Source: Serinicoccus kebangsaanensis
GTDB taxonomy: Bacteria > Actinomycetota > Actinomycetes > Actinomycetales > Dermatophilaceae
Length of the DNA: 64,000 nt
Assembly: GCF_008919445.1 (NCBI RefSeq)
Contig: NZ_VSLG01000006.1
Span: 1 to 64,000 of the forward strand
Direction of reading: 5' to 3'
Shown here: piece after piece, positions 7,042 to 20,240 of the stretch
Layout: each line of letters begins with the position of its first letter
Position numbering within the stretch: the stretch's first letter is position 1
Translations under genes and position numbers: made by a program
The notes under the pieces: generated by a model
Told to the model about the DNA's origin: nothing
Database searches by the model: none
What the model saw: only the letters and a program-made list of their open reading frames with translations

Positions 7042-10000
7042 TCAGTACGTCACCGGGGCGGTGCGCCGGCGGATGACCGTGACCTCGTCACGGTTGCTGC
7101 CGATGGGCCCGATGTAGTTGAAGAAGTAGGAGAACTGGGCGTAGCCGCCGACGATGTGGCTCGGCTTGAGCAGGATCCGCGTGAGGCTGTTGTGGATGCC
7201 GCCGCGCTTGTTGTCGGTCTCGGTCAGCGGCACGTCGATGAGCCGGTCCTGGGCGTGGTGCATGAAGACCGTGCCCTCGGGCATCCGGTGGCTGACGATG
7301 GCCCGGCAGGCGACCACGCCGTTGCGGTTGACCGCCTCGATCCAGTCGTTGTCCCGCACGCCGATCTTGGCCGCGTCCACGTCGGACATCCAGATGGTCT
7401 GGCCGCCGCGCGAGAGCGAGAGCATGAACAGGTTGTCCTGGTACTCGCTGTGGATGGACCACTTGCTGTGCGGGGTCAGGTAGCGGACCGCGACCGCGAC
7501 CGCACCGTCGTGGTCGCTCTGCTGACCGACCGGGTCCTCGCCGAAGAGCGTGGTCATGTTCAGCGGCGGCCGGTAGGTCGGCAGCGACTCGCCCATCCCC
7601 TGCACCCAGTCGTGGTCGAGGTAGAAGTGCTGCCGGCCGGTCAGGGTGTGGAACGGTTTGGAGCGTTCGATGTTGATCGTGAACGGTGCGTAGCGCCGCC
7701 CTCCGCTCTCCGAGCCGGACCACTCCGGGGAGGTGATGACCGGTACCGGCGCAGCCTGGGTGTCGGCGAAGGTGATCTGCTTGCCCTCGTGCTCGGCCGA
7801 CAGGTCGTGCAGCTGGGTGCCGGTCCGCTTCTCCAGGAACCGGAACCCCTGCGTCGCCAGGTGGCCGTTGCTGACGCCGGACAGGTGCATGATCGCATCG
7901 GCGACCTGGATGTCGGTCTCGATCCTCGGTTGCCCGTCCGCGATACCGCCGCGGACGGTGCCGTTGCGTCGGCGCAGGATGTCGACCTCGCGGCCGACCT
8001 CGTACTTGACGCCCTTGGTCAGCATGCCGACCTTCTCCAGCAGCGGGCCTATGGAGGTCATCTTGTCGTAGACGGTGGTGTAGTCGCGCTCGACCTCGGC
8101 GACTACCGGCATGGTGCGTCCCGGGACCGGCTCGACCTCGCCGGTGCGCCAGTCCTGGACCCGGCCGTGCACGGTCGCCATCGCCTCCGGGGTGTCGTGC
8201 CACAGCGGTTTGGTCACGACGTCCTTGCGGGTGCCCAGGTGGTCGACCGCCAGCTGGGAGAAGCGCCGGGCGATGGCCTTCCACGCCTCCCAGTCGCTCT
8301 TGGCCTGCCACGGCGGGGCGATCGCAGGGTTGAAGGAGTGGATGAACGGGTGCATGTCCGTGGTGTTGATGTCGTGCTTCTCGTACCACGTCGCGGCCGG
8401 GAGCACGACGTCGGAGAACAGCGTGGAGCTGGTCATCCGGAAGTCGAGCGTCAGCAGCAGGTCGAGCTTGCCCTCGCCGGCCTGCTCGGGCCAGGCCACG
8501 TCCTGCGGCCGGTGCTCCGGTGCGGCCTGCGTCGCCTTCACCGCATGGTCGGTGCCCAGCAGGTGCTTGAGGAAGTACTCGTTGCCCTTGGCCGAGGAGC
8601 CGAGGAGGTTGGAGCGCCACAGCGACAGGATCCGGGGGTAGTTGTCCGGGTGCTCCGGGTCCTCGACCGCGAAGCGCAGGGTGCCGTCCTTGAGCCGGCT
8701 GGCGACGTACTCCCCGGCGGCCATGCCGGCCTCGGCGGCCTCGTCGGCGACCTGGAGGGAGCTGCGGTCGAACTGCGGGTAGGACGGGACCCACCCCAGC
8801 CGGACGGCCTGGGCGAGCAGGTCCATCGTGGAGCGCCCGGTGAAGGCGCCGGTCGCGCCGTTGACCGCGTCGGCGTCGAAGGTGTCGTAGCGGTACTGGC
8901 TGGTGTGGACGTACCAGTAGGACGTCTGGTTCATGTGCCGCGGCGGCCGCACCCAGTCCAGGGCGAAGGCGAGGTGCTGGAAGCCCATGATCGGGCGGAC
9001 CTTCTCCTGGCCGACGTAGTGCGCCCAGCCACCGCCGTTGCGGCCCTGGCAGCCGGTGATCGAGGTCAGCACCAGCAGGGCGCGGTAGATCTGGTCGGAG
9101 TGGTACCAGTGGTTGATGCCGGCGCCCATGAGGATCATGCCGCGGCCCTGGGTGTCGATCGCGTTCTGCGCCCACTCGCGGCCGATCCGGATGATCTGCT
9201 CCACCGGGACGCCCGTGATCTCCGCCGCCCAGGCGGGGGTGGCGGGGGCCGAGGGGTCGTCGTATCCGGACGGCCACGCCCCCGGGAGCCCGTCGCGGCC
9301 CACGCCGTACTGGGCGAGCATGAGGTCCAGGACCGTGGTGACCAGCCGGTCGCCGACCCGGCGGACCGGCACGCCCCGGCGCTCCAGCACCTGGCTGCCC
9401 TCGAGGTTGTCGAAGCGCGGCAGCGCCACCTCGACCGCCTCGCCGGTGTCGCCGTAGAGGGAGAGCACCGGGCGGATGTCACCCAGGTCGAGGTTCCACC
9501 GGCCCTCACCCTCCTCGCCGAAGCGGTGGCCGATGGAGCCGTTCGGGATCGCGACCTCGCCGGTCGCCCCGTCGAGGACCGCCGGCTTCCACATGGCGTT
9601 CTCGCTGCCGGCCTCGGGGTGGCCCTCCAGGTCGCCGGCGACGAGGAACTTACCCGGTCGAAAGCTCCCGTCACCGGCGTCATCGAGCGTCACCAGGTAT
9701 GGCAGGTCGGTGAAGCGCTGGTTGTAGTCGGTGAAGAAGTCGACCTGGCGGTCCACGAAGAACTCGCGCATGACGACGTGCCCCATACCCATCGCCAGCG
9801 CACCGTCGGTGCCCGGGGCGGAGGCGACCCACTCGTCGGCGAACTTGACGTTGTCGGCGTAGTCCGGCGCGACCGCGATGACCTTCTGGCCGCGGTAGCG
9901 CGCCTCGACCATCCAGTGGGCGTCGGGGGTGCGGGTCAGCGGGACGTTGGAGCCCCACATGATGAGGTAGCCCGCGTCCCACCAGTCGCCGGACTCGGGC

Positions 10001-10749
10001 ACGTCGGTCTGGTCGCCGAACATCTGCGGGGAGGCGTTGGGCAGGTCGGCGTACCAGTCGTAGAAGGACAGCATGGGCGCGCCGATGAGCTCGTGGAACC
10101 GGGCTCCGGAGGCGTAGGACACCGGGGACATGGCCGGGATGGGTGAGAACCCCGCGATGCGGTCCGGGCCGAACCGCTTGACCGTGTAGACGTGGGCCGC
10201 GGCGACGAGGTCGACGACGTCCTCCCAGCTGGCCCGCACCAGGCCGCCCTTGCCGCGCGCCGCCTTGTAGGCCCGTGCCTTCTCCTCGTCCTGGACGATC
10301 GAGGCCCAGGCCAGCACGGGGTCGCCGTACTGCTGGCGGGCGGCTCGGAACATCTCCAGCAGGGTGCCGCGCACGTAGGGGTAGCGCACCCGGGTCGGGC
10401 TGTAGGTATACCAGGAGAAGGCCGCCCCGCGGGGGCAGCCGCGCGGCTCGTACTCCGGCTTGTCCGCGCCGGTCGAGGGGTAGTCGGTCTGCTGGGCCTC
10501 CCAGGTGATGATCCCGTCCTTGACGTAGACCTTCCAGGAGCACGAGCCGGTGCAGTTGACGCCGTGCGTGGAACGAACCACCTTGTCGTGGCTCCATCGG
10601 TCTCGGTAGAAGGAGTCGCCGCTGCGGCCGCCCTCGAGGCTCAGCGTCCGCCGGTCGTCTGAGACCCGCCCTCGGGTGAAGAACCGGCGGGTCCCGACCA
10701 GGGCGTCGCTGAGCGGGCCGTCGAGGCGGGCAGAGGTGATGTCGCTCAT
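7042..10749 (-). CDS. narG: Respiratory nitrate reductase alpha subunit (Mo-bisMGD)
   Basis: 1235 aa catalytic subunit, nitrate to nitrite, facing the cytoplasm. The N-terminal FS0 cluster motif is present with its atypical histidine (H62, C66, C70, C105). The stretch GDQTDVPES is where the family's molybdenum Asp ligand is expected. There is no twin-arginine signal, consistent with cytoplasmic NarGHI rather than an archaeal or periplasmic type. The ATG overlaps the stop of the upstream regulator (ATGA), so the reductase operon is coupled to it. Length and conservation look intact. Confidence 0.97.
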   Translation of the reverse strand: MSDITSARLDGPLSDALVGTRRFFTRGRVSDDRRTLSLEGGRSGDSFYRDRWSHDKVVRSTHGVNCTGSCSWKVYVKDGIITWEAQQTDYPSTGADKPEYEPRGCPRGAAFSWYTYSPTRVRYPYVRGTLLEMFRAARQQYGDPVLAWASIVQDEEKARAYKAARGKGGLVRASWEDVVDLVAAAHVYTVKRFGPDRIAGFSPIPAMSPVSYASGARFHELIGAPMLSFYDWYADLPNASPQMFGDQTDVPESGDWWDAGYLIMWGSNVPLTRTPDAHWMVEARYRGQKVIAVAPDYADNVKFADEWVASAPGTDGALAMGMGHVVMREFFVDRQVDFFTDYNQRFTDLPYLVTLDDAGDGSFRPGKFLVAGDLEGHPEAGSENAMWKPAVLDGATGEVAIPNGSIGHRFGEEGEGRWNLDLGDIRPVLSLYGDTGEAVEVALPRFDNLEGSQVLERRGVPVRRVGDRLVTTVLDLMLAQYGVGRDGLPGAWPSGYDDPSAPATPAWAAEITGVPVEQIIRIGREWAQNAIDTQGRGMILMGAGINHWYHSDQIYRALLVLTSITGCQGRNGGGWAHYVGQEKVRPIMGFQHLAFALDWVRPPRHMNQTSYWYVHTSQYRYDTFDADAVNGATGAFTGRSTMDLLAQAVRLGWVPSYPQFDRSSLQVADEAAEAGMAAGEYVASRLKDGTLRFAVEDPEHPDNYPRILSLWRSNLLGSSAKGNEYFLKHLLGTDHAVKATQAAPEHRPQDVAWPEQAGEGKLDLLLTLDFRMTSSTLFSDVVLPAATWYEKHDINTTDMHPFIHSFNPAIAPPWQAKSDWEAWKAIARRFSQLAVDHLGTRKDVVTKPLWHDTPEAMATVHGRVQDWRTGEVEPVPGRTMPVVAEVERDYTTVYDKMTSIGPLLEKVGMLTKGVKYEVGREVDILRRRNGTVRGGIADGQPRIETDIQVADAIMHLSGVSNGHLATQGFRFLEKRTGTQLHDLSAEHEGKQITFADTQAAPVPVITSPEWSGSESGGRRYAPFTINIERSKPFHTLTGRQHFYLDHDWVQGMGESLPTYRPPLNMTTLFGEDPVGQQSDHDGAVAVAVRYLTPHSKWSIHSEYQDNLFMLSLSRGGQTIWMSDVDAAKIGVRDNDWIEAVNRNGVVACRAIVSHRMPEGTVFMHHAQDRLIDVPLTETDNKRGGIHNSLTRILLKPSHIVGGYAQFSYFFNYIGPIGSNRDEVTVIRRRTAPVTY

Positions 10750-11627
10750 GCGGGGTCTCCTGGTGCGGTGGCGGGGGTGTCGGTCGGGGTCTCGGGGTCG
10801 TCCGCCGGGATGGCGTGCTGGGAGGACCCCCAGCGCGCGGGTCCGGGCTCGATGGGCTCGCCCGGCGGGGTACGGCCGCGCAACAGCAGCGCATGGCAGG
10901 TGGCGGGGGCCACGAACGGACGCAGGCTGACGCCCGCCGTGTCCTCACCGGCCACCTCCAGGGCACCCTTGAGCAGCCCACGGTGCACGCCGCACACGAC
11001 CTCCGGGCTCTCCCGGGCCAGGTCGAGGAAGGGACAGTCGCGCAGCGTGATGCGCACGTCGCCCTGCCGGCCGGACATCTCGAGGTCAGGGGTGTAACCC
11101 CATTCCTGGAGCAGGTCGACCACAGCCCCCACCTTGCCCACCCACTCACCGGTGGTGCGGGCGGGCTCCGCCAGCGGCTCCGTCCCGTCGGCACCCAGGC
11201 GTCGACGCACCCACTGGGCCCCCGCCTCTTCCGGGGTCGGACTCTCGCCTTGGGTGGGGTCCAGCGCGCTGGCCAGCACGGTCGCCAGGACCTGGAAAGG
11301 CCCCTCGATCGCGGGCTCCGGTGCCGCCTGCGCCACGGCCGAGGCGACATACCGTTTGGCTGGACGGCCCGCGCCACCGCTACGCACGACGTGGGTGTCC
11401 ACCAAGCCGCCGTCGACCAGCTGGTCGAGGTGGAAGCGCACCGTCGTGCTGTGCAGCCCCATCTCCTGGCCGAGCTCGGCGGCGGTCAGGCCGGTGTCAC
11501 GGGTGGGGCGGCCGGACACGGCCAGTGGTGGCAGTGCCCGCAGCCGCTCGATGATCGAGCGCCGGACGGCGGAGGCCATCAACGAGTTTGCCCCACGGGA
11601 CGGCCCGGCGGGCTCGGTACCGGACAT
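10746..11627 (-). CDS. ArsR/SufR-like winged-helix regulator heading the nar operon
   Basis: 293 aa. Residues about 15-95 form a winged helix (RRSIIERLRALPPLAVSG, TAAELGQEMGLHSTTVRFHL, GRPAKRY wing) like the COG2345 group of predicted transcriptional regulators. The C-terminal half carries C198, C212, H215 and C244 in a DCPFLDLAR..VVCGVHRG..ATCHAL arrangement, which in related proteins can ligate an Fe-S cluster or metal. The C-terminus is a Pro/Thr/Asp tail. It begins with a good AAGGAG site and overlaps narG, so it probably controls its own operon and the divergent narK operon. A redox- or NO-sensing role is inference. Confidence 0.78.
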   Translation of the reverse strand: MSGTEPAGPSRGANSLMASAVRRSIIERLRALPPLAVSGRPTRDTGLTAAELGQEMGLHSTTVRFHLDQLVDGGLVDTHVVRSGGAGRPAKRYVASAVAQAAPEPAIEGPFQVLATVLASALDPTQGESPTPEEAGAQWVRRRLGADGTEPLAEPARTTGEWVGKVGAVVDLLQEWGYTPDLEMSGRQGDVRITLRDCPFLDLARESPEVVCGVHRGLLKGALEVAGEDTAGVSLRPFVAPATCHALLLRGRTPPGEPIEPGPARWGSSQHAIPADDPETPTDTPATAPGDPA

Positions 11628-11824: not shown

Positions 11825-11875
11825 ATCAGCGCGGACATCATTTAGATGAGTCTGTTCCTTCTAATGAGGAGAGCC

Positions 11876-13279
11876 ATGAGCACCCCTGCCCCCGCGACCG
11901 GCCCGGTGTCGGCCTCGCGCTCTGGCGCCACCCGGGTCATGTGGACGTCCACCGTGGCCTTCACGCTGATGTTCGCGGTGTGGCTCATGTTCGGGATCCT
12001 GGGCAAGCCCATCCAGCAGGAGTTCGGTCTCACCGACACCCAGCTCTCCTGGGTCAGCGCGCTGGCCGTGCTCAACGGGGCGATGTGGCGCCTGCCGGCG
12101 GGGATGCTCGCGGACCGGATCGGGGGACGCAAGGTGATGACCGCGATGCTCGCCATCACCGCGGTGCCAGCGTTCCTGGTCAGCCTCGCCGAGAGCTACG
12201 CGATGCTGCTGGTGCTGGCGTTCCTCGTCGGCTTCGCCGGCAACGCCTTCAGCGTGGGCATCGCCTGGAACGCCGCCTGGGCGCCGCGCGAGCGGCAGGG
12301 ATTCGCTCTCGGGCTCTTCGGCGCCGGCAACGTCGGCGCGTCGGTGACCAAGTTCATCGGGCCCCCGATCATCGCGGCTACCGCCGGCACCACGGTCGTC
12401 CTGGGCCTGCAGGGCGGCTGGCGGCTCATCCCCGTCGTCTACGCCGTCCTGCTACTGGTCATGGCGGCAGCACTGTGGGTCCTCACCCCCTCCCAGGACC
12501 GGATGCCCGGGGCCAGCAGGCCCCTGGGCGAGATGCTCGCGCCGCTGTCGCAGGTGCGGGTGTGGCGGTTCAGCCTCTACTACGTCGCCGTGTTCGGCGC
12601 CTACGTCGCGCTGTCCGCCTGGATGCCGCTCTACTACATGAACAACTTCGGGGTCTCCCTGGCCGCAGCCGGCCTGCTCACCGCGGTGTTCATCTTCCCC
12701 GCCTCGCTGCTGCGGCCCGTGGGCGGCTGGTTCTCCGACCGCTGGGGCGCACGCCGGGCGATGTACGGCACCTTCTTCGTCATGCTGGCCACCTCAGGCG
12801 TCCTCATGATGCCCAATGGCCACGTCGTCATCAACCACGCGGACGGGACGCAGTCGGAGCACCTGGGCTACGCGATGCACATCGTGCCCTTCACCATCCT
12901 GCTGTTCCTGCTCGGCTGCGCCATGGGCGTGGGCAAGGCCGCGGTCTACAAGCACATCCCCGAGTACTTCCCCGGCAACGTCGGCCCGGTCGGCGGCCTG
13001 GTGGGCATGCTCGGCGGCCTGGGCGGCTTCTTCCTGCCGCCACTGTTCGCCTACACCACGGCCTGGTCCGGCTTCCCCACGTCCACCTTCTTCGTCATCT
13101 TCCTGCTCACCGCCCTCTGCCTGGTGTGGATGCACCTGACGGTCGTGCGGATGCTGCACGAGCGCTCGCCCGAGGTGTCCGCCGACATCGAGGTCCCGAC
13201 GCACACCACCGAGCCCGCACCTGCCGGCATCCCAGCCGGCTCCACCCACAGCACGACCCTCGAGGAGACCCGCGCATGA
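11876..13279 (+). CDS. narK: Nitrate/nitrite transporter, NarK family (first copy)
   Basis: 467 aa MFS transporter with about 12 membrane helices. The two glycine-rich nitrate-signature regions appear as GFAGNAFSVGIAWNAAWAP and, later, MGVGKAAVYKHIPEYFP. Its shape is closer to NarK1-type nitrate/proton symporters, but this is a loose judgement. The ATG at 11876 is chosen because AGGAG lies 5 bp upstream; an earlier in-frame codon at 11846 has no such site. Its stop overlaps the start of the second transporter (ATGA). Confidence 0.9.
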   Translation: MSTPAPATGPVSASRSGATRVMWTSTVAFTLMFAVWLMFGILGKPIQQEFGLTDTQLSWVSALAVLNGAMWRLPAGMLADRIGGRKVMTAMLAITAVPAFLVSLAESYAMLLVLAFLVGFAGNAFSVGIAWNAAWAPRERQGFALGLFGAGNVGASVTKFIGPPIIAATAGTTVVLGLQGGWRLIPVVYAVLLLVMAAALWVLTPSQDRMPGASRPLGEMLAPLSQVRVWRFSLYYVAVFGAYVALSAWMPLYYMNNFGVSLAAAGLLTAVFIFPASLLRPVGGWFSDRWGARRAMYGTFFVMLATSGVLMMPNGHVVINHADGTQSEHLGYAMHIVPFTILLFLLGCAMGVGKAAVYKHIPEYFPGNVGPVGGLVGMLGGLGGFFLPPLFAYTTAWSGFPTSTFFVIFLLTALCLVWMHLTVVRMLHERSPEVSADIEVPTHTTEPAPAGIPAGSTHSTTLEETRA

Positions 13280-14673
13280 GCACCGTCGACAACCACCGCA
13301 CCGGAGGGGAGTGGCTGCAGTCCTGGGACCCGGAGAACGAGCAGACCTGGGACAAGGGTCTGGCCTGGCGGACCCTGTGGATCACCACCTTCTGCCTGAC
13401 CCTCGCCTTCGTGGCGTGGTTCCTGCCGAGCGCGATCATCCCCAAGCTCAACGCGCTGGGCTACGAGTTCACCAAGAGCCAGCTCTACTGGATGGCTGCC
13501 ATGCCCGGCCTGTCCGCCGGACTGTTCCGCCTGGTGTGGATGGTGCTGCCCCCGATGCTGGGCACCCGTAAGATGGTCAGCCTCACCACGCTGCTGCTGA
13601 TCGCCTCCACCCTCGGCTGGGGGGTGCGCGTGCAGGCACCGACCGCCCCCTACTGGGAGCTGATGGTCCTCGCCTTCCTCGCCGGCATCGGCGGTGGAGC
13701 CTTCTCGGGCTTCATGCCCTCGACCTCCTACTTCTTCCCGAAGAGGAAGCAGGGCACCGCGCTCGGCCTGCAGGCCGGGATCGGCAACTTCGGCGTCTCG
13801 CTGGTCCAGCTGCTGACGCCCTACCTCATCGCCATGGGTGCCCTGGCCGTGTTCGGCAGCAGCCAGCAGCTGCAGATACCGGGCCAGCAGGCCCAGCAGG
13901 TCTGGTACCAGAACGCGGCGTTCGTCTGGATCCCGCTCATGGTCGTCGGCGCCGTGCTCGCCTGGACGATGCTCAAGTCGGTCCCCGTCAAGGCCAACAT
14001 CCGCCAGCAGTTCGACATCTTCTCCAACCAGGACACCTGGTGGATGACGGTGCTCTACATCATGACCTTCGGCACATTCTCCGGGCTCTCGGCACAGTTC
14101 GGGCTGCTCATGGCCAACCTCTACGGCATCGGCAACGAACAGATCGTCAGCGGCTCCGGGCCGGACGCACAGATGCTCATCCCCGGGTATGCCGTGCCCG
14201 ACGTGGTCGCCTTCGTCTTCCTCGGCCCCCTCATCGGCGCCGGTGCCAGGGTGCTGTTCTCCCCGCTCACCGACCGGATGGGCGGCGCCATCTGGACCCT
14301 CATCTCCGGGCTGGGACTCATCGCCTCGATCGCCGTGACCATCCCGGCGCTGACCCCGGACACCAGCTCCGCCGAGGCCCTCAGCGCAGACTTCCGGCAC
14401 TTCCTCCTCGGCATGCTCGCGATCTTCCTCTTCGCCGGCATCGGCAACGCCTCGACGTTCAAGCAGATGCCGATGATCTTCGAGCGCCGGCAGGCGGGGG
14501 GTGTCATCGGGTGGACGGCCGCGATCGCCGCCTTCGGCCCGTTCCTCTTCGGCGTCGGCCTGACGATCATGAGCCCGACCCTCTTCTACCTGATCGGCAT
14601 CGCCTGGGCCGTGATGTGCGTCGCCATCACCTGGATGCGCTACGCCCGCCCGGGCGCCCCCAAGCCCGGCTGA
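13276..14673 (+). CDS. narK: Nitrate/nitrite transporter, NarK family (second copy)
   Basis: 465 aa MFS protein with a hydrophilic N-terminus of about 35 residues, then about 12 helices. Signature segments are GIGGGAFSGFMPSTSYFFP and GIGNASTFKQMPMIF, and extended loops separate helices as in NarK2-type nitrate/nitrite exchangers. It is clearly divergent from the first copy, so the pair looks like the NarK1-NarK2 division of labour (fused in some proteobacteria) kept as two overlapping genes. It would export nitrite in exchange for nitrate. Confidence 0.9.
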   Translation: MSTVDNHRTGGEWLQSWDPENEQTWDKGLAWRTLWITTFCLTLAFVAWFLPSAIIPKLNALGYEFTKSQLYWMAAMPGLSAGLFRLVWMVLPPMLGTRKMVSLTTLLLIASTLGWGVRVQAPTAPYWELMVLAFLAGIGGGAFSGFMPSTSYFFPKRKQGTALGLQAGIGNFGVSLVQLLTPYLIAMGALAVFGSSQQLQIPGQQAQQVWYQNAAFVWIPLMVVGAVLAWTMLKSVPVKANIRQQFDIFSNQDTWWMTVLYIMTFGTFSGLSAQFGLLMANLYGIGNEQIVSGSGPDAQMLIPGYAVPDVVAFVFLGPLIGAGARVLFSPLTDRMGGAIWTLISGLGLIASIAVTIPALTPDTSSAEALSADFRHFLLGMLAIFLFAGIGNASTFKQMPMIFERRQAGGVIGWTAAIAAFGPFLFGVGLTIMSPTLFYLIGIAWAVMCVAITWMRYARPGAPKPG

Positions 14674-14726: not shown

Positions 14727-15023
14727 ATGACCCACACCGAGCTCCCCCTCGCCCAGGTCCGCGAGGGCGGTTGCGGCTGCGGTTGCAGCGACGAGGGCGT
14801 GCCCGCCCTCGACGCCCGCCAGATCCCCCACGCGCTGCGCCACGCGAGCATCCTCGGCGCCCTGTCCGGGCTGCGTCCGGGACAGCAGATGGACCTCGTC
14901 GCCCCGCACGACCCCCTGCCGCTGCTCGCCCAGATCACCGACCGCGAGGGAGAGGCCATCAGCTGGGACTACCGGGGCAGCGGCCCCCAGGCCTGGACCC
15001 TTCGGTTCACCCGCGCCGCCTGA
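14727..15023 (+). CDS. DUF2249-domain protein
   Basis: 98 aa. It begins with a cysteine knot (GGCGCGCSDEG, residues about 13-24) followed by a DUF2249-like domain (LDARQIPHALRHASILGALSGL and ending SWDYRGSGPQAWTLRF). DUF2249 proteins are repeatedly found with denitrification and NO-response genes, often beside hemerythrins, but lack a defined reaction. GGAG precedes the ATG. One base separates it from the next gene, so it is in the narK-nirK operon. Confidence 0.8.
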   Translation: MTHTELPLAQVREGGCGCGCSDEGVPALDARQIPHALRHASILGALSGLRPGQQMDLVAPHDPLPLLAQITDREGEAISWDYRGSGPQAWTLRFTRAA

Positions 15024-15024
15024 G

Positions 15025-15507
15025 ATGTGCACCTACTGCGGCTGCGAGTCAATTGGGGTCATCGGCCGGTTCATGGCCGAGCACACCGACATCATCAACG
15101 CCTCCGGTGAGCTGCGCCGGGCGTGCGAGGGCGGCAGTACCCCGCAGGTCGTGGCGGCCGTCGACCGGGTCGAGGCGCTGCTGCACCCGCACACCCGCGA
15201 CGAGGAGACCGGGCTGTTCGCCGTACTGCGCCGCCAGGAGGAGTTCACCGACCACATCGACAGCCTCTGCTCGGAGCACACCACGCTCGATGCCCAGCTC
15301 GAGGCGATCCGGAGGGCCGGCGCGGACGTCGACCCCGTGCTCGTCGACACCTTCCTGCACGACCTGCGTCACCACATCGACAGGGAGGACAACGGTCTGT
15401 TCCCCGCTGCGGCGATCGCTCTCGACGCCCCCGACTGGGCCGAGGTGGACGAGGCGACGCCGACCCCGATGGCGAAGGCGCAGGGACAGGCACCGCACCC
15501 AGGATGA
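15025..15507 (+). CDS. Hemerythrin-domain protein, probably NO/O2 handling
   Basis: 160 aa. The helical hemerythrin pattern is visible: FMAEHTDI, LLHPHTRDEETGLF, SEHTTLDAQLE and LHHHIDRED-like FLHDLRHHIDREDNGLFP supply the His and Glu ligands of a di-iron centre. The N-terminus MCTYCGCES carries three cysteines, reminiscent of the N-terminal Cys motif of RIC/ScdA iron-centre repair proteins. Given its position upstream of a nitrite reductase, binding or detoxifying NO or repairing Fe-S clusters is the likely job (inference). Confidence 0.82.
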   Translation: MCTYCGCESIGVIGRFMAEHTDIINASGELRRACEGGSTPQVVAAVDRVEALLHPHTRDEETGLFAVLRRQEEFTDHIDSLCSEHTTLDAQLEAIRRAGADVDPVLVDTFLHDLRHHIDREDNGLFPAAAIALDAPDWAEVDEATPTPMAKAQGQAPHPG

Positions 15508-16673
15508 GGACGAGCACGGGCCTCGCCGGCCGTAGCCCGCGCTGCACCCCGCTGCTCATCGCCGGCGGTGGACTGGCCCTGCTGGCCGGCTTGGACGCCG
15601 CACTCACCCTGGCCGGTCTGCCCGCCCCCTTCGGCAGCGCGCGGCTCGCGGTCCTGCACGGGCCGCTCATGGTGCTCGGGTTCCTCGGCACCGTCATCGC
15701 CCTCGAACGCGCCGTCGCCCTGCGCGCGACCTGGTCCCTCCTCGCGCCTGCACTGCTGGGCGCCGGGGCCCTCGCCCTGGTACTGCTGCCCCAGCCGCTG
15801 CTCGGACGGCTGCTACTCGTGCAGGGCATGCTGCTGCTCGTCGTGGTCTACCTCGCGCTGTGGCGGCGTAACCGCGACCTGCTCGTGGCCGTCCAGGCTC
15901 TCGGCGCCGTCCTCGCCGCCGCGGCCGCGCTGCTGCTCAACCGCGTCCAGGTGGCGGCCGTCGTGCCGCTGCTGATCGGCTTCGTCGTGCTGACCATCGC
16001 CGCCGAGCGCGTCGAGCTGGCCCGCCTGGCGATGCCGACCATCTCCCGGGCCGCCCTCACCGCCCACGCCACAGGCCTGAGCGGCGCCGCCGTCGCGGCC
16101 GTGCTGTGGCCCTCGACGGGAGGGCGCCTGCTGGGGGTGTCCTTGATGCTTCTAACGGCCTGGCTCGTCCGACACGACATCGCCCGCCGGATGGTCCGCA
16201 CGAGCCGGCTGCCGCGCTTCGCCGCCGCCGCGCTCCTCGCCGGCTACGGGTGGCTCGCCGTCGGCGGGCTGAGTCTGGTCCTGATGGGGTCGTCGACGGT
16301 CTCGGCCGCCGGGTACGACATCGTGGTCCACGCGACCTTCCTCGGCTTCGCGATGTCGATGATCCTGGCCCACGCCCCGGTGATCCTGCCCGCCGTGCTG
16401 CGGGTGCGCCTGCCTTACACCACGCTCATGTGGGGCCCCCTGGTCCTGCTGCACGTCACCCTGCTCGGTCGGTTCCTGACGTTGGCCGTCGGCACGACGA
16501 CCGGCTGGCACGCCGCGCTCATCGGCAACGTCGCAGCCGTCCTGCTCTTCATCACGGTGGCGGTCATCACCTCGGCCGGCGCCCGGCGCCACCGAACCGG
16601 ACGCGCACGGCATACCCGCCACCGCTCCCCCACCCCTACGACCGAGGAACACGAGCCCGCATGCCTGTCCTGA
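15504..16673 (+). CDS. NnrS-like polytopic membrane protein
   Basis: 389 aa with 11-12 hydrophobic helices and a short basic tail. Several histidines lie in or next to helices (LHGPLMVLGFLGTVIALERA, VVHATFLGFAMSMILAHAP), a pattern that recalls the heme-copper NnrS proteins that protect denitrifiers from NO stress. I cannot confirm the family by eye. The ATG overlaps the hemerythrin stop, and its own stop lies 13 bp inside the nitrite reductase gene, so the four genes are tightly coupled. Confidence 0.6.
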   Translation: MRTSTGLAGRSPRCTPLLIAGGGLALLAGLDAALTLAGLPAPFGSARLAVLHGPLMVLGFLGTVIALERAVALRATWSLLAPALLGAGALALVLLPQPLLGRLLLVQGMLLLVVVYLALWRRNRDLLVAVQALGAVLAAAAALLLNRVQVAAVVPLLIGFVVLTIAAERVELARLAMPTISRAALTAHATGLSGAAVAAVLWPSTGGRLLGVSLMLLTAWLVRHDIARRMVRTSRLPRFAAAALLAGYGWLAVGGLSLVLMGSSTVSAAGYDIVVHATFLGFAMSMILAHAPVILPAVLRVRLPYTTLMWGPLVLLHVTLLGRFLTLAVGTTTGWHAALIGNVAAVLLFITVAVITSAGARRHRTGRARHTRHRSPTPTTEEHEPACLS

Positions 16674-19423
16674 CCAGCCCTACCGTCCCCGACGCCCCGC
16701 GAGCGACCGGTCCCGCCCGTCCGGGCGGCACACGGGGCAGGTGGCCGCTGCGCGACTACCCCGGCGTGCTGTGGATGGTGCTCGCGGTGGCCACGACCTT
16801 GGTGCACCCTTTCGTGCCCGACTCGCGCTGGCTCATGGTGCACCTGGTGCTGCTCGGCGCCCTGACGCACTCGATCATGGTGTGGAGCACCCACTTCACC
16901 CAGGCGCTGCTGAAGACCGCGCCCGGCCTGGACGACCGGCGCCAGCAGAACCGCCGCCTGATCCTGCTCCTGGTCGGCACCACGACCATCCTGGTCGGCG
17001 TGCCCACGGCGCAGTGGTGGGTCACCGCGACGGGCGCGGCGCTGGTCACCGCCGCCGTCGTCTGGCACGGCGTGCAGCTCTTCCGCCGGCTGCGCTCGGC
17101 GCTGCCGGGCCGGTTCCGGGTGACGGTGCGGTACTACCTGGCCGCGGCCGTCTGCCTGCCAGTCGGCGTCGCCCTGGGCGCCACCCTCGCGCTGGGTCTC
17201 GACGACGCGACGCACGGCCGCATCCTGCTGGCGCACATCACCGTCAACATCCTCGGCTGGGTCGGGCTCACCGTCACCGGCACCCTGCTCACCCTGTGGC
17301 CCACGATGCTGCGCACCCCCATCGGGCCCGAGGCGGAACGGCGCGCGCGCCAGGCCCTGCCCGGACTCGCCGGCGCGATCGCGCTGCTCGTGACCGGCGC
17401 CCTGGCTGACCTGCGGTGGGTCACCGTCGCCGCGCTGAGCCTGTACGCCCTGGCGCTGGCGTGGTGGGCCTCCGCGGTCCTCGCGCCGGCTCGGACCGCC
17501 CGCCCGCGCGAGTTCGCCCCGGCCTCGGTCGGTCTGTCGCTGGTCTGGTGGCTGGCCGGCATCGTGGTCGTCCTCGTGCGGCTCTCGACCACGCAGACGT
17601 GGGCCGAGTTCACCGACGGCTTCGGCCCCACCACCGCGATCCTCGTCGTCGGGTTCGCCGCGCAGCTGCTGGCGGGAGCGCTGTCCTACCTGGTGCCGTC
17701 GGTGCTCGGCGGCGGCAAGACCGTCGTGCGAGCCGGGCAGACGTGGTTCGACCGGTGGGGTACCGCCCGGCTGGTCCTCATCAACGCCGGCCTGCTCCTG
17801 TGCCTGCTGCCCGCCCCGAGCATCGTCCGCGTCATCCTGTCCGTCCTCGTCGTGCTCGCCCTTGCCGCCTTCGTCCCGCTGATGCTCGCCGGGATCCGCG
17901 CCGCGGTGCGCGCGAAGAAAGAGGTGGAGACGGCCCGCGCCCGGGGAGAACGCCCGGCCGGGGCGGCCCCCACGCTGGGCACTCCCGCCGGCAAGCCCGA
18001 CCGGATGCCCTCGGTCTGGTCCGGCGGGCAGTTGGTGGCTGCGGTGTCCGCGCTCGTGCTGGCCGTGTCGATCGGCGTCGCGCTCGACCCTCCCGCAGCC
18101 GGCCTGGGCCTATCCGGGGACGCGAGCAGGGAGCCCGTGGTCGCCCCCACCGGCGCCACCACCACCGTGCAGGTGGCCGCCGTCGACATGCGCTTCGAGC
18201 CCGCCCGTATCGAGGTGCCCCGCGGTGACCGCCTCGTGGTCGAGCTGACCAACACCGACCCGGCCACCGTGCACGACCTGCAGATGCTCGGCGAGCGGAC
18301 CCCGCGCCTGGCCCCCGGCGAGTCCGCCACGCTCGACCTGGGTGTCGTCGGAGAGCCGGCGCAGGGTTGGTGCACGATCGTGGGCCACCGGCAGATGGGA
18401 ATGGTCCTGGACGTCGTGGTGACCGGGGACGACCAGGTGTCCCTCGCCGCTGAGGACCTTACCGGCCACGACACCGAGGGAAACGACACCGACGGCCCAG
18501 CCTCGATGCACCTCGACCCGCAGACCCCGGTGACGGACCCGGTCGACCCAGCTCTGCCGCCGGTGACGACGAAGGCGGGCACCACGCACCAGCGCACCCT
18601 CAGGGCGACCGAGGAGGAGCTCGAGGTCGCCCCCGGCATCACTCAGCTCCGCTGGACCTTCAACGGTCGGGTCCCGGGTCCGACGCTGCGCGGCAAGGTG
18701 GGGGACGTCTTCGAGATCACCCTGGTCAACGACGGGACGATGGGTCATTCGATCGACTTCCACGCCGGGGCCCTGGCCCCTGACGAGCCGATGCGCACCA
18801 TCCCACCCGGGGAGTCGCTGGTCTATACCTTCACCGCACAGCGGGCCGGGATCTGGATGTACCACTGCTCGACCATGCCCATGACCAGCCACATCTCGGC
18901 CGGCATGCACGGCGCCGTCATCATCGACCCACCCGAGGGCCTGCCTCCGGTCGACCAGGAGTACCTGCTCGTCCAGTCCGAGGTACACCTCTCCCCCGCC
19001 ACAGATCACGCAGAAGCGCCTGCTGCGGAGGTCGACGCCGTGGCGGCCGCCTCGGACCGGCCAAGCTTCGTCACCTTCAACGGCATCGCCAACCAGTACG
19101 ACGAGCACGTTCTCGACGTCGTGGTCGGAGACCGCGTGCGGCTCTGGGTGCTGGACGCCGGCCCGAACCGTTCGACGTCCTTCCACGTCGTCGGCGGCCA
19201 GTTCGACACCGTCTACGCCGAAGGGGCCTGGCGTCTCGGGGGTCCCGAGGCTCCGGCCGAGGACGCAGGAGCACAGACCCTGGGCCTCATGGCCGCCCAG
19301 GGCGGCTTCGTCGAGCTGACCTTCCCCGAGGCGGGGTCCTACCCGTTCGTCTCCCACGCCATGGCCGACGCCGAGCGCGGCGCCCACGGGGTCATACGGG
19401 TCACTACGCGGACCGATGATTGA
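16661..19423 (+). CDS. nirK: Membrane-anchored cupredoxin and copper nitrite reductase fusion
   Basis: 920 aa, about 2.5 times a normal NirK. Residues about 25-480 hold roughly a dozen membrane helices with conserved His (HLVLLGALTHSIMVWSTHF). Residues about 500-590 are a cupredoxin with a type-1 copper set (H538, C571, H576, M579 or M581). Residues about 630-918 are an AniA/NirK two-domain reductase: type-1 ligands H696, C736, H744, M749; type-2 ligands H701, H735, H899; catalytic D699 and H842. All expected residues are present, so nitrite reduction to NO on the outer face is predicted. The cupredoxin may feed electrons from a membrane donor. ATG at 16661. Confidence 0.88.
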   Translation: MPVLTSPTVPDAPRATGPARPGGTRGRWPLRDYPGVLWMVLAVATTLVHPFVPDSRWLMVHLVLLGALTHSIMVWSTHFTQALLKTAPGLDDRRQQNRRLILLLVGTTTILVGVPTAQWWVTATGAALVTAAVVWHGVQLFRRLRSALPGRFRVTVRYYLAAAVCLPVGVALGATLALGLDDATHGRILLAHITVNILGWVGLTVTGTLLTLWPTMLRTPIGPEAERRARQALPGLAGAIALLVTGALADLRWVTVAALSLYALALAWWASAVLAPARTARPREFAPASVGLSLVWWLAGIVVVLVRLSTTQTWAEFTDGFGPTTAILVVGFAAQLLAGALSYLVPSVLGGGKTVVRAGQTWFDRWGTARLVLINAGLLLCLLPAPSIVRVILSVLVVLALAAFVPLMLAGIRAAVRAKKEVETARARGERPAGAAPTLGTPAGKPDRMPSVWSGGQLVAAVSALVLAVSIGVALDPPAAGLGLSGDASREPVVAPTGATTTVQVAAVDMRFEPARIEVPRGDRLVVELTNTDPATVHDLQMLGERTPRLAPGESATLDLGVVGEPAQGWCTIVGHRQMGMVLDVVVTGDDQVSLAAEDLTGHDTEGNDTDGPASMHLDPQTPVTDPVDPALPPVTTKAGTTHQRTLRATEEELEVAPGITQLRWTFNGRVPGPTLRGKVGDVFEITLVNDGTMGHSIDFHAGALAPDEPMRTIPPGESLVYTFTAQRAGIWMYHCSTMPMTSHISAGMHGAVIIDPPEGLPPVDQEYLLVQSEVHLSPATDHAEAPAAEVDAVAAASDRPSFVTFNGIANQYDEHVLDVVVGDRVRLWVLDAGPNRSTSFHVVGGQFDTVYAEGAWRLGGPEAPAEDAGAQTLGLMAAQGGFVELTFPEAGSYPFVSHAMADAERGAHGVIRVTTRTDD

Positions 19424-19649: not shown

Positions 19650-20240
19650 TCAGGTCCGTGCAGGCGAGTCGCGAGGCTCGCGGGGCACGAGCCGGGTGAG
19701 CTGTGTCACGTGCCGGGGTTCGAGCTCAGCCAACGAGGACACGCCGAGCAGGGTCATGGTGCGTTCGATCTCGCTGCGCAGGATGGCGATGGTGCGGTCG
19801 ACGCCTTCGCGCCCGCCGGCCATCAGGCCGTAGAGGTAGGCCCGGCCGATGAGCGTGAACTTGGCTCCGAGGGCGATGGACGCGACGATGTCGGCTCCGT
19901 TCATGATGCCGGTGTCGATGATGACCGTGGCGTCCTTACCCACCTCGCGGACGACCTGCGGCAGGAGGTGGAAGGGGACCGGCGCGCGGTCGAGCTGGCG
20001 CCCACCGTGGTTGGACAGCACGATGCCGTCGACGCCGGCTTCGACCAGCCGGGCGGCGTCGGAGACGTTCTGCACGCCCTTGACCACGATCTTGCCCGGC
20101 CACATGTCGCGGATGACGTCGAGGTCGTCGTAGCTGATGATCGGGTCCATGGCGGCGTTCAGCAGCTCTCCGACGGTTCCTCCGGTGGTGCTGAGGGAGG
20201 CGATTTCCAGCGTGGGTGTGGTGAGGAAGTCGAACCACCA
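19650..20240 (-). pseudogene. lldD: 5'-truncated L-lactate dehydrogenase (lldD) remnant
   Basis: About 197 codons matching the C-terminal half of FMN-dependent L-lactate dehydrogenase: [23 protein letters not shown], the active-site [32 protein letters not shown] and the ending [14 protein letters not shown]. Similarity begins abruptly at 20240; the upstream frame reaches a stop at about 20247-20249, so the N-terminal half, including the start, is missing. An internal ATG at 20150 could make a 166-residue fragment, but it would lack part of the barrel. The FMN-site half that remains is intact, suggesting recent truncation by rearrangement. Confidence 0.85.

Follow-up and report, generated by a model that had tools for sequence, protein, structure and literature searches.

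A three-part copper nitrite reductase (NirK) was previously described for Propionibacterium acnes and other Actinobacteria in a survey of NirK proteins (Decleyre et al. 2016, PMC4770552). The P. acnes-type enzyme is ~900 aa long and consists of a ~400-aa transmembrane part, which that survey calls "of unknown function", followed by a cupredoxin with the motif CX4HX4M and then by a Clade II NirK (PMC4770552). The same survey reports that some actinobacterial NirKs have the cupredoxin without the membrane domain, and for the Hyphomicrobium NirK it quotes two earlier observations, i.e., that the N-terminal cupredoxin is too distant from the core for effective electron transfer and that a mutant of the cupredoxin copper is more active (PMC4770552).

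The protein studied here, likewise ~900 aa long, shows no architectural difference from the P. acnes-type three-part NirK. A first-pass annotation of this DNA had implied that the fusion architecture was novel, an implication that falls away since the architecture was already reported for Actinobacteria (PMC4770552). What is new relative to that survey is the predicted fold of the membrane part, its invariant histidines, its stand-alone homologues, and a partner gene.

Gene, domains and copper ligands of the fusion

The window, i.e., the whole stretch of DNA analysed, is 64,000 nucleotides long and comes from Serinicoccus kebangsaanensis. The fusion gene and its parts lie in the window as follows.

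16661 to 19423, plus strand: three-part fusion gene of 920 aa (12-TM membrane domain, tether helix, cupredoxin, and NirK), from the ORF, Pfam, the alignment, and an AlphaFold2 model
16733 to 17941, plus strand: membrane domain, residues 25-427, 12 helices with a predicted heme-copper-oxidase-type fold and invariant H61 (helix 2) and H192 (helix 6), from models, Foldseek, and the alignment
18023 to 18085, plus strand: tether (13th) membrane helix, residues 455-475, from model helices and the loop charge pattern
18146 to 18436, plus strand: cupredoxin domain with type-1 copper ligands H538, C571, H576, and M581, from Pfam, the alignment, and the model
18578 to 19408, plus strand: NirK domain with type-1 ligands H696, C736, H744, and M749, type-2 ligands H701, H735, and H899, and catalytic D699 and H842, from the alignment, the model, and PDB matches

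The fusion gene starts with an ATG that has a GAGGAA motif 11 nt upstream, and this start overlaps the stop of the upstream gene by 13 nt. Pfam places Cupredoxin_1 at residues 498-560 of the protein and Cu-oxidase_3 (multicopper oxidase) at residues 651-759, and the NCBIfam model Cu_nitrite_red (TIGR02376) matches with E = 1e-52 and 179.5 bits, which is below its curated cut-off of 296.3. The AlphaFold2 model, generated with 44 relatives, has a mean pLDDT of 88 and contains 12 membrane helices within residues 25-427 and one more, the 13th, at residues 455-475, followed by a cupredoxin fold (~496-592) and a NirK of two domains (~640-916). The helices of the model and the charge pattern of the loops support a placement of the copper domains on the outer side of the membrane by the predicted tether helix. 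The fusion protein is carried by most sampled genomes of the genus. Because it is the single Cu-oxidase_3 match in its own genome and most congeners have it at full length, we do not regard it as an artefact of assembly.

The ORF, Pfam, and AlphaFold2 agree with the first-pass annotation, which had read the protein as a 920-residue membrane/cupredoxin/NirK fusion in this domain order and had held that all type-1, type-2, and catalytic residues (D699 and H842) could be placed. Indeed, the cupredoxin ligands (C571-x4-H576-x4-M581, i.e., the CX4HX4M motif, together with H538), the NirK type-1 ligands H696, C736, and H744, the type-2 ligands H701, H735, and H899, and both catalytic residues are kept in 44/44 relatives, while M749, the remaining type-1 ligand, is methionine in 40 of the 44 and leucine in the other 4. 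The label "AniA-type" is loose: the best PDB matches of the copper part in both sequence and fold searches are NirK structures, the nearest being the Bradyrhizobium four-domain NirK (6the) and the Hyphomicrobium cupredoxin-NirK (2dv6), with AniA ranked lower. Judged by its sequence, the fusion belongs to the dissimilatory copper nitrite reductases, in their actinobacterial three-part form.

Scanning bacterial genomes yielded at least 557 related loci. Among the best 80 of these, essentially all are labelled actinobacterial (with one Acidobacteria label and one unverified Bacillus), and the closest are from Serinicoccus and Ornithinimicrobium at 91-94%. The fusion is encoded in a single frame in 71 of these best 80, and the remaining "membrane-only" loci among them partly reflect frameshifts or the runs of N that mark contig gaps. 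The three-part NirK is a common and widespread enzyme type, present in hundreds of actinobacteria, and the membrane module is the interesting, testable part of this otherwise known type.

The membrane domain, its histidines and its homologues

When the membrane domain was modelled alone, the prediction reached a pLDDT of 92.5 and a pTM of 0.91. All 50 of the matches listed by Foldseek against the PDB are subunit I of a heme-copper oxidase or NO reductase (ba3, aa3, cbb3, bo3, cNOR, and qNOR types), with TM-scores mostly of 0.45-0.63 (cbb3 6xkw_n, 0.60; aa3 8ugh_4A, 0.63) and a probability mostly of 1.00, at E-values that are marginal (best 1.4e-3). At the sequence level, the domain matched no oxidase, no NorB, and no solved structure, and Pfam gave no match to COX1 (PF00115) in the fusion protein. 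The models thus support a divergent 12-helix module with a predicted heme-copper-oxidase subunit I fold, at most a putative member of that family.

In an alignment of 67 homologues (44 fused and 23 stand-alone), H61 in helix 2 and H192 in helix 6 are the sole histidines invariant in all 67. Placed by helix number, both lie toward the outer end of their helices, the side where the cupredoxin emerges, and along with them Y159, R151, and W57 are invariant or nearly so. In oxidases, a helix-10 histidine pairs with helix 2, and the helix-7 and helix-10 pairs hold the active site of oxidases and NO reductases. The membrane domain has no histidine beyond H192, and the helix-7 and helix-10 ligands are absent, so that there is no full oxidase-like site and the domain is very unlikely to be an oxidase or NO reductase; since helix 10 also lacks the histidine partner of helix 2, any heme would need H61/H192 or some other pairing. 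The first-pass annotation had seen in the membrane histidines a hint of heme or copper. The modelled oxidase-type fold and the universal H61 and H192 lend this indirect support, but the hint does not extend to the other histidines, as H136 is specific to the fused homologues and H49, H70, H78, and H185 vary across the alignment, nor are the helix-7 and helix-10 ligands there to strengthen it. Within the membrane part, a putative metal site is indicated by the invariant pair only.

Among 198 genomes from across the phylum, stand-alone versions of the membrane domain, ~410-490 aa in length, occur in other classes. A NirK-like gene directly adjoins the stand-alone homologue in 5 of 23 loci, and in 2 further loci of the 23 a cupredoxin/multicopper-type gene lies beside it. 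In rhizobia, a ~450-aa "hypothetical protein" adjoins DUF2249 genes near nnrS and nirK, and in Shinella and Rhizobium near nor as well. A profile of this rhizobial family matched the profile of the fused and stand-alone domains over 345 columns with a probability of 94% (E = 1e-7), against 0.2% for the reversed sequence and 0.2% for an unrelated 12-helix MFS family. The rhizobial helix-2 and helix-6 histidines align with H61 and H192, and the two families have in common the H-x6-GW spacing in helix 6, as would fit a remote homologue of the membrane domain. The rhizobial protein is, however, stand-alone, with NirK encoded by a separate gene in those genomes, unlike in the fusion. A helix-10 glutamine at first taken as common to both families was dropped because its positions in the two families differ by five. 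The replicons carrying the rhizobial homologue, which is placed between DUF2249 genes, include pSymA of S. meliloti and p42f of Rhizobium etli, with a further case in Shinella. When plasmids were searched for the membrane domain, other phyla gave no useful matches. In haloarchaea, DUF2249 genes are also found near nirK and nor, and DUF2249 has been associated with the oxidase superfamily (PMC11218638).

The operon and the upstream partner gene

An apparent operon ends with the fusion, which is preceded there by two NarK genes, a DUF2249 gene, a hemerythrin-like gene, and the partner gene. The neighbouring features are the following.

7042 to 10749, minus strand: narG, respiratory nitrate reductase alpha subunit (Pfam)
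10746 to 11627, minus strand: HTH regulator, divergent from the operon (Pfam, NCBIfam)
11846 to 13279, plus strand: NarK-type nitrate/nitrite transporter 1, at the head of the apparent operon (Pfam, NCBIfam)
13276 to 14673, plus strand: NarK-type nitrate/nitrite transporter 2 (Pfam, NCBIfam)
14727 to 15023, plus strand: DUF2249 protein, same operon as the fusion
15025 to 15507, plus strand: hemerythrin-domain protein (HHE), same operon as the fusion (Pfam)
15504 to 16673, plus strand: partner gene of 389 aa without a Pfam family, expected to have many membrane helices, with conserved H52, H276, and H290

The narG product would make the nitrite used by the fusion. Homologues of the HTH regulator are found near the fusion in 52/80 loci (best 80 of at least 557).

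The hydrophobic segments of the partner protein were assigned by eye; the second carries an invariant H52-G53, and a late one carries H276 and H290, likewise invariant. Among 395 genomes of the class, it is present in 31 of the 58 that have the membrane domain and in none of the 337 others (Fisher p = 2e-30, uncorrected for kinship). A weak full-length profile similarity connects the partner to the fused membrane domain (66%, E = 5.5e-5, against 0.3% for the reversed control). NnrS was considered as an identity for either protein and rejected, as neither matched PF05940 and profile comparisons gave 0.1-0.5%; the NnrS of S. meliloti, used as a positive control for PF05940, was detected with E = 2e-113. 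Searches of the fusion's own genome returned no match to an NO reductase or a globin, nor to NnrS, although the NnrS search was silent in control genomes too and is weak evidence. Of the 58 sampled genomes that have the membrane domain, 47 likewise gave no match to an NO reductase.

Electron supply to the reductase and comparison with known systems

The route by which electrons reach nitrite reductase in actinobacteria was not found in the literature searched. The bcc-aa3 supercomplex is in use in actinobacteria, which are not known to have a soluble cytochrome c, so that on general grounds their NirK would need a tethered donor. We tentatively prefer, with somewhat less than even confidence, to read the fusion as a self-contained membrane-bound path from menaquinol through the membrane module or modules to the cupredoxin and NirK. 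The membrane module, alone or with the partner protein, would hold a heme or other metal near the outer membrane side and would take electrons from menaquinol; these would then pass to the fused cupredoxin copper and from there to NirK, first to its type-1 and next to its type-2 copper, where nitrite would be reduced to NO. This reading is favoured by the conservation of the copper ligands and of D699 and H842, by the oxidase/NOR subunit I fold of every listed match, by the invariance of H61 and H192 toward the cupredoxin side, by the prevalence of the fusion among the best 80 loci and the position of some stand-alone homologues and of the rhizobial one near nirK, and by the restriction of the partner protein to genomes with the fusion. 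It is weakened by the cupredoxin distance and the more active mutant in Hyphomicrobium, by the marginal Foldseek E-values, and by the lack of any sequence match to oxidases. A narrower version, possible if rather doubtful, is that the module is a pared-down relative of the heme-copper oxidases which lost the O2/NO site, kept one cofactor site made of the helix-2 and helix-6 histidines, and now acts as a menaquinol dehydrogenase. If true, a single polypeptide would lead from quinol to nitrite, i.e., a quinol:nitrite oxidoreductase on an oxidase scaffold.

The oxidation of menaquinol could instead fall to the partner protein through a bis-histidine heme, with the fused domain mainly docking the partner and presenting the cupredoxin. 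The partner's H52, H276, and H290 come nearer to the low-spin heme pair of oxidases than do the fused domain's histidines, and its gene adjoins the fusion, is translationally coupled to it, occurs solely where the fusion is present, and encodes a protein with some profile similarity to the fused domain. Nevertheless, the partner is missing in 27 of the 58 genomes with the membrane domain and is therefore not required everywhere, and we consider this arrangement fairly unlikely.

Roles in NO handling, sensing, or copper/heme maturation have been proposed for NnrS-type proteins, and the membrane domain might be a module of this kind that protects the cell or loads NirK rather than an electron donor. 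Such a role would suit the NO-stress-type neighbours (hemerythrin and DUF2249), the rhizobial homologue next to nnrS and DUF2249, and a genome in which NO must be handled otherwise, given that no NO reductase, globin, or NnrS was matched there. Nonetheless, the domain has no detectable relation to PF05940, and covalent fusion through a cupredoxin is a better fit to electron transfer, leaving this role unlikely.

Quite improbable, in our judgement, is a plain anchor, with the cupredoxin fed by the bcc complex or by some other tethered carrier. Those lineages whose cupredoxin-NirK lacks the domain can do without it (PMC4770552), but a single helix would suffice for anchoring, the (near-)invariant H61, H192, Y159, R151, and W57 indicate a constraint beyond it, and the domain also exists stand-alone. 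A one-chain nitrite-to-N2O enzyme, in which the membrane domain would act as the NO reductase, is very improbable and was rejected, because despite the predicted oxidase/NOR-type fold and the lack of any other NOR match in the genome, the domain has no histidine after H192 and the helix-7 and helix-10 active-site pairs are missing.

For the preferred path from menaquinol to nitrite and its alternatives alike, the predicted oxidase-type fold, the two universal histidines, the stand-alone homologues beside nirK, and the partner gene make the role of the membrane part open to specific tests. That role also bears on the release of NO and N2O, because most of the sampled genomes with the fusion have no recognisable NO reductase.

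The membrane domain may resemble subunit I of heme-copper oxidases and NO reductases in its predicted 12-helix fold, and it likewise has histidines in helices 2 and 6, but it differs in having neither the helix-7 and helix-10 histidine ligands nor detectable sequence similarity. The Hyphomicrobium denitrificans enzyme (2dv6, 6tfd), the top fold match, also joins an N-terminal cupredoxin to NirK and aligns with residues 509-915 of the fusion (E = 8e-47), but, unlike the fusion, it has no membrane domain. As in the fusion, electron-transfer domains are tethered to NirK in the Bradyrhizobium heme-cupredoxin-NirK (6the, core domain) and in the Ralstonia NirK-cytochrome c (4ax3). In those two systems, a soluble c-type heme domain serves as the tethered donor, whereas in the fusion its place would be taken by a 12-helix membrane module.

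Neighbours of the fusion gene

15504-16673, + strand: second polytopic protein, no Pfam family
19650-20150, - strand: 166-aa ORF just 3' of the fusion

Across 395 genomes, the second polytopic protein is obligately associated with the fusion, in that all 31 carriers also have the fusion, versus none of the 337 genomes without it, and this protein is a candidate partner handling quinol or NO. The downstream ORF looks like a truncated remnant; by eye, its product resembles the C-terminal part of an L-lactate (alpha-hydroxyacid) dehydrogenase of the FMN-dependent type.

Nitrogen oxide gene content

By gene content, Serinicoccus kebangsaanensis (G000) is a partial denitrifier: its whole genome holds nitrate reductase and nitrite reductase genes, and neither an NO reductase (PF00115 matches ctaD only) nor a globin was detected there.

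The membrane domain in other genomes

Stand-alone genes for the membrane domain, with neither cupredoxin nor NirK:
L124:853-2106
L140:7288-8592

Uncharacterised polytopic proteins, Alphaproteobacteria:
L142:13235-14590 (S. meliloti pSymA)
L199:6001-7359
L200:5998-7350
L202:5053-6396

At locus L124, the stand-alone gene directly follows an HTH regulator like that at 10746-11627. The alphaproteobacterial protein is remotely homologous to the membrane domain of the fusion; its helix-2 and helix-6 histidines are invariant, and its gene is adjoined by DUF2249 genes and nnrS-nirK.
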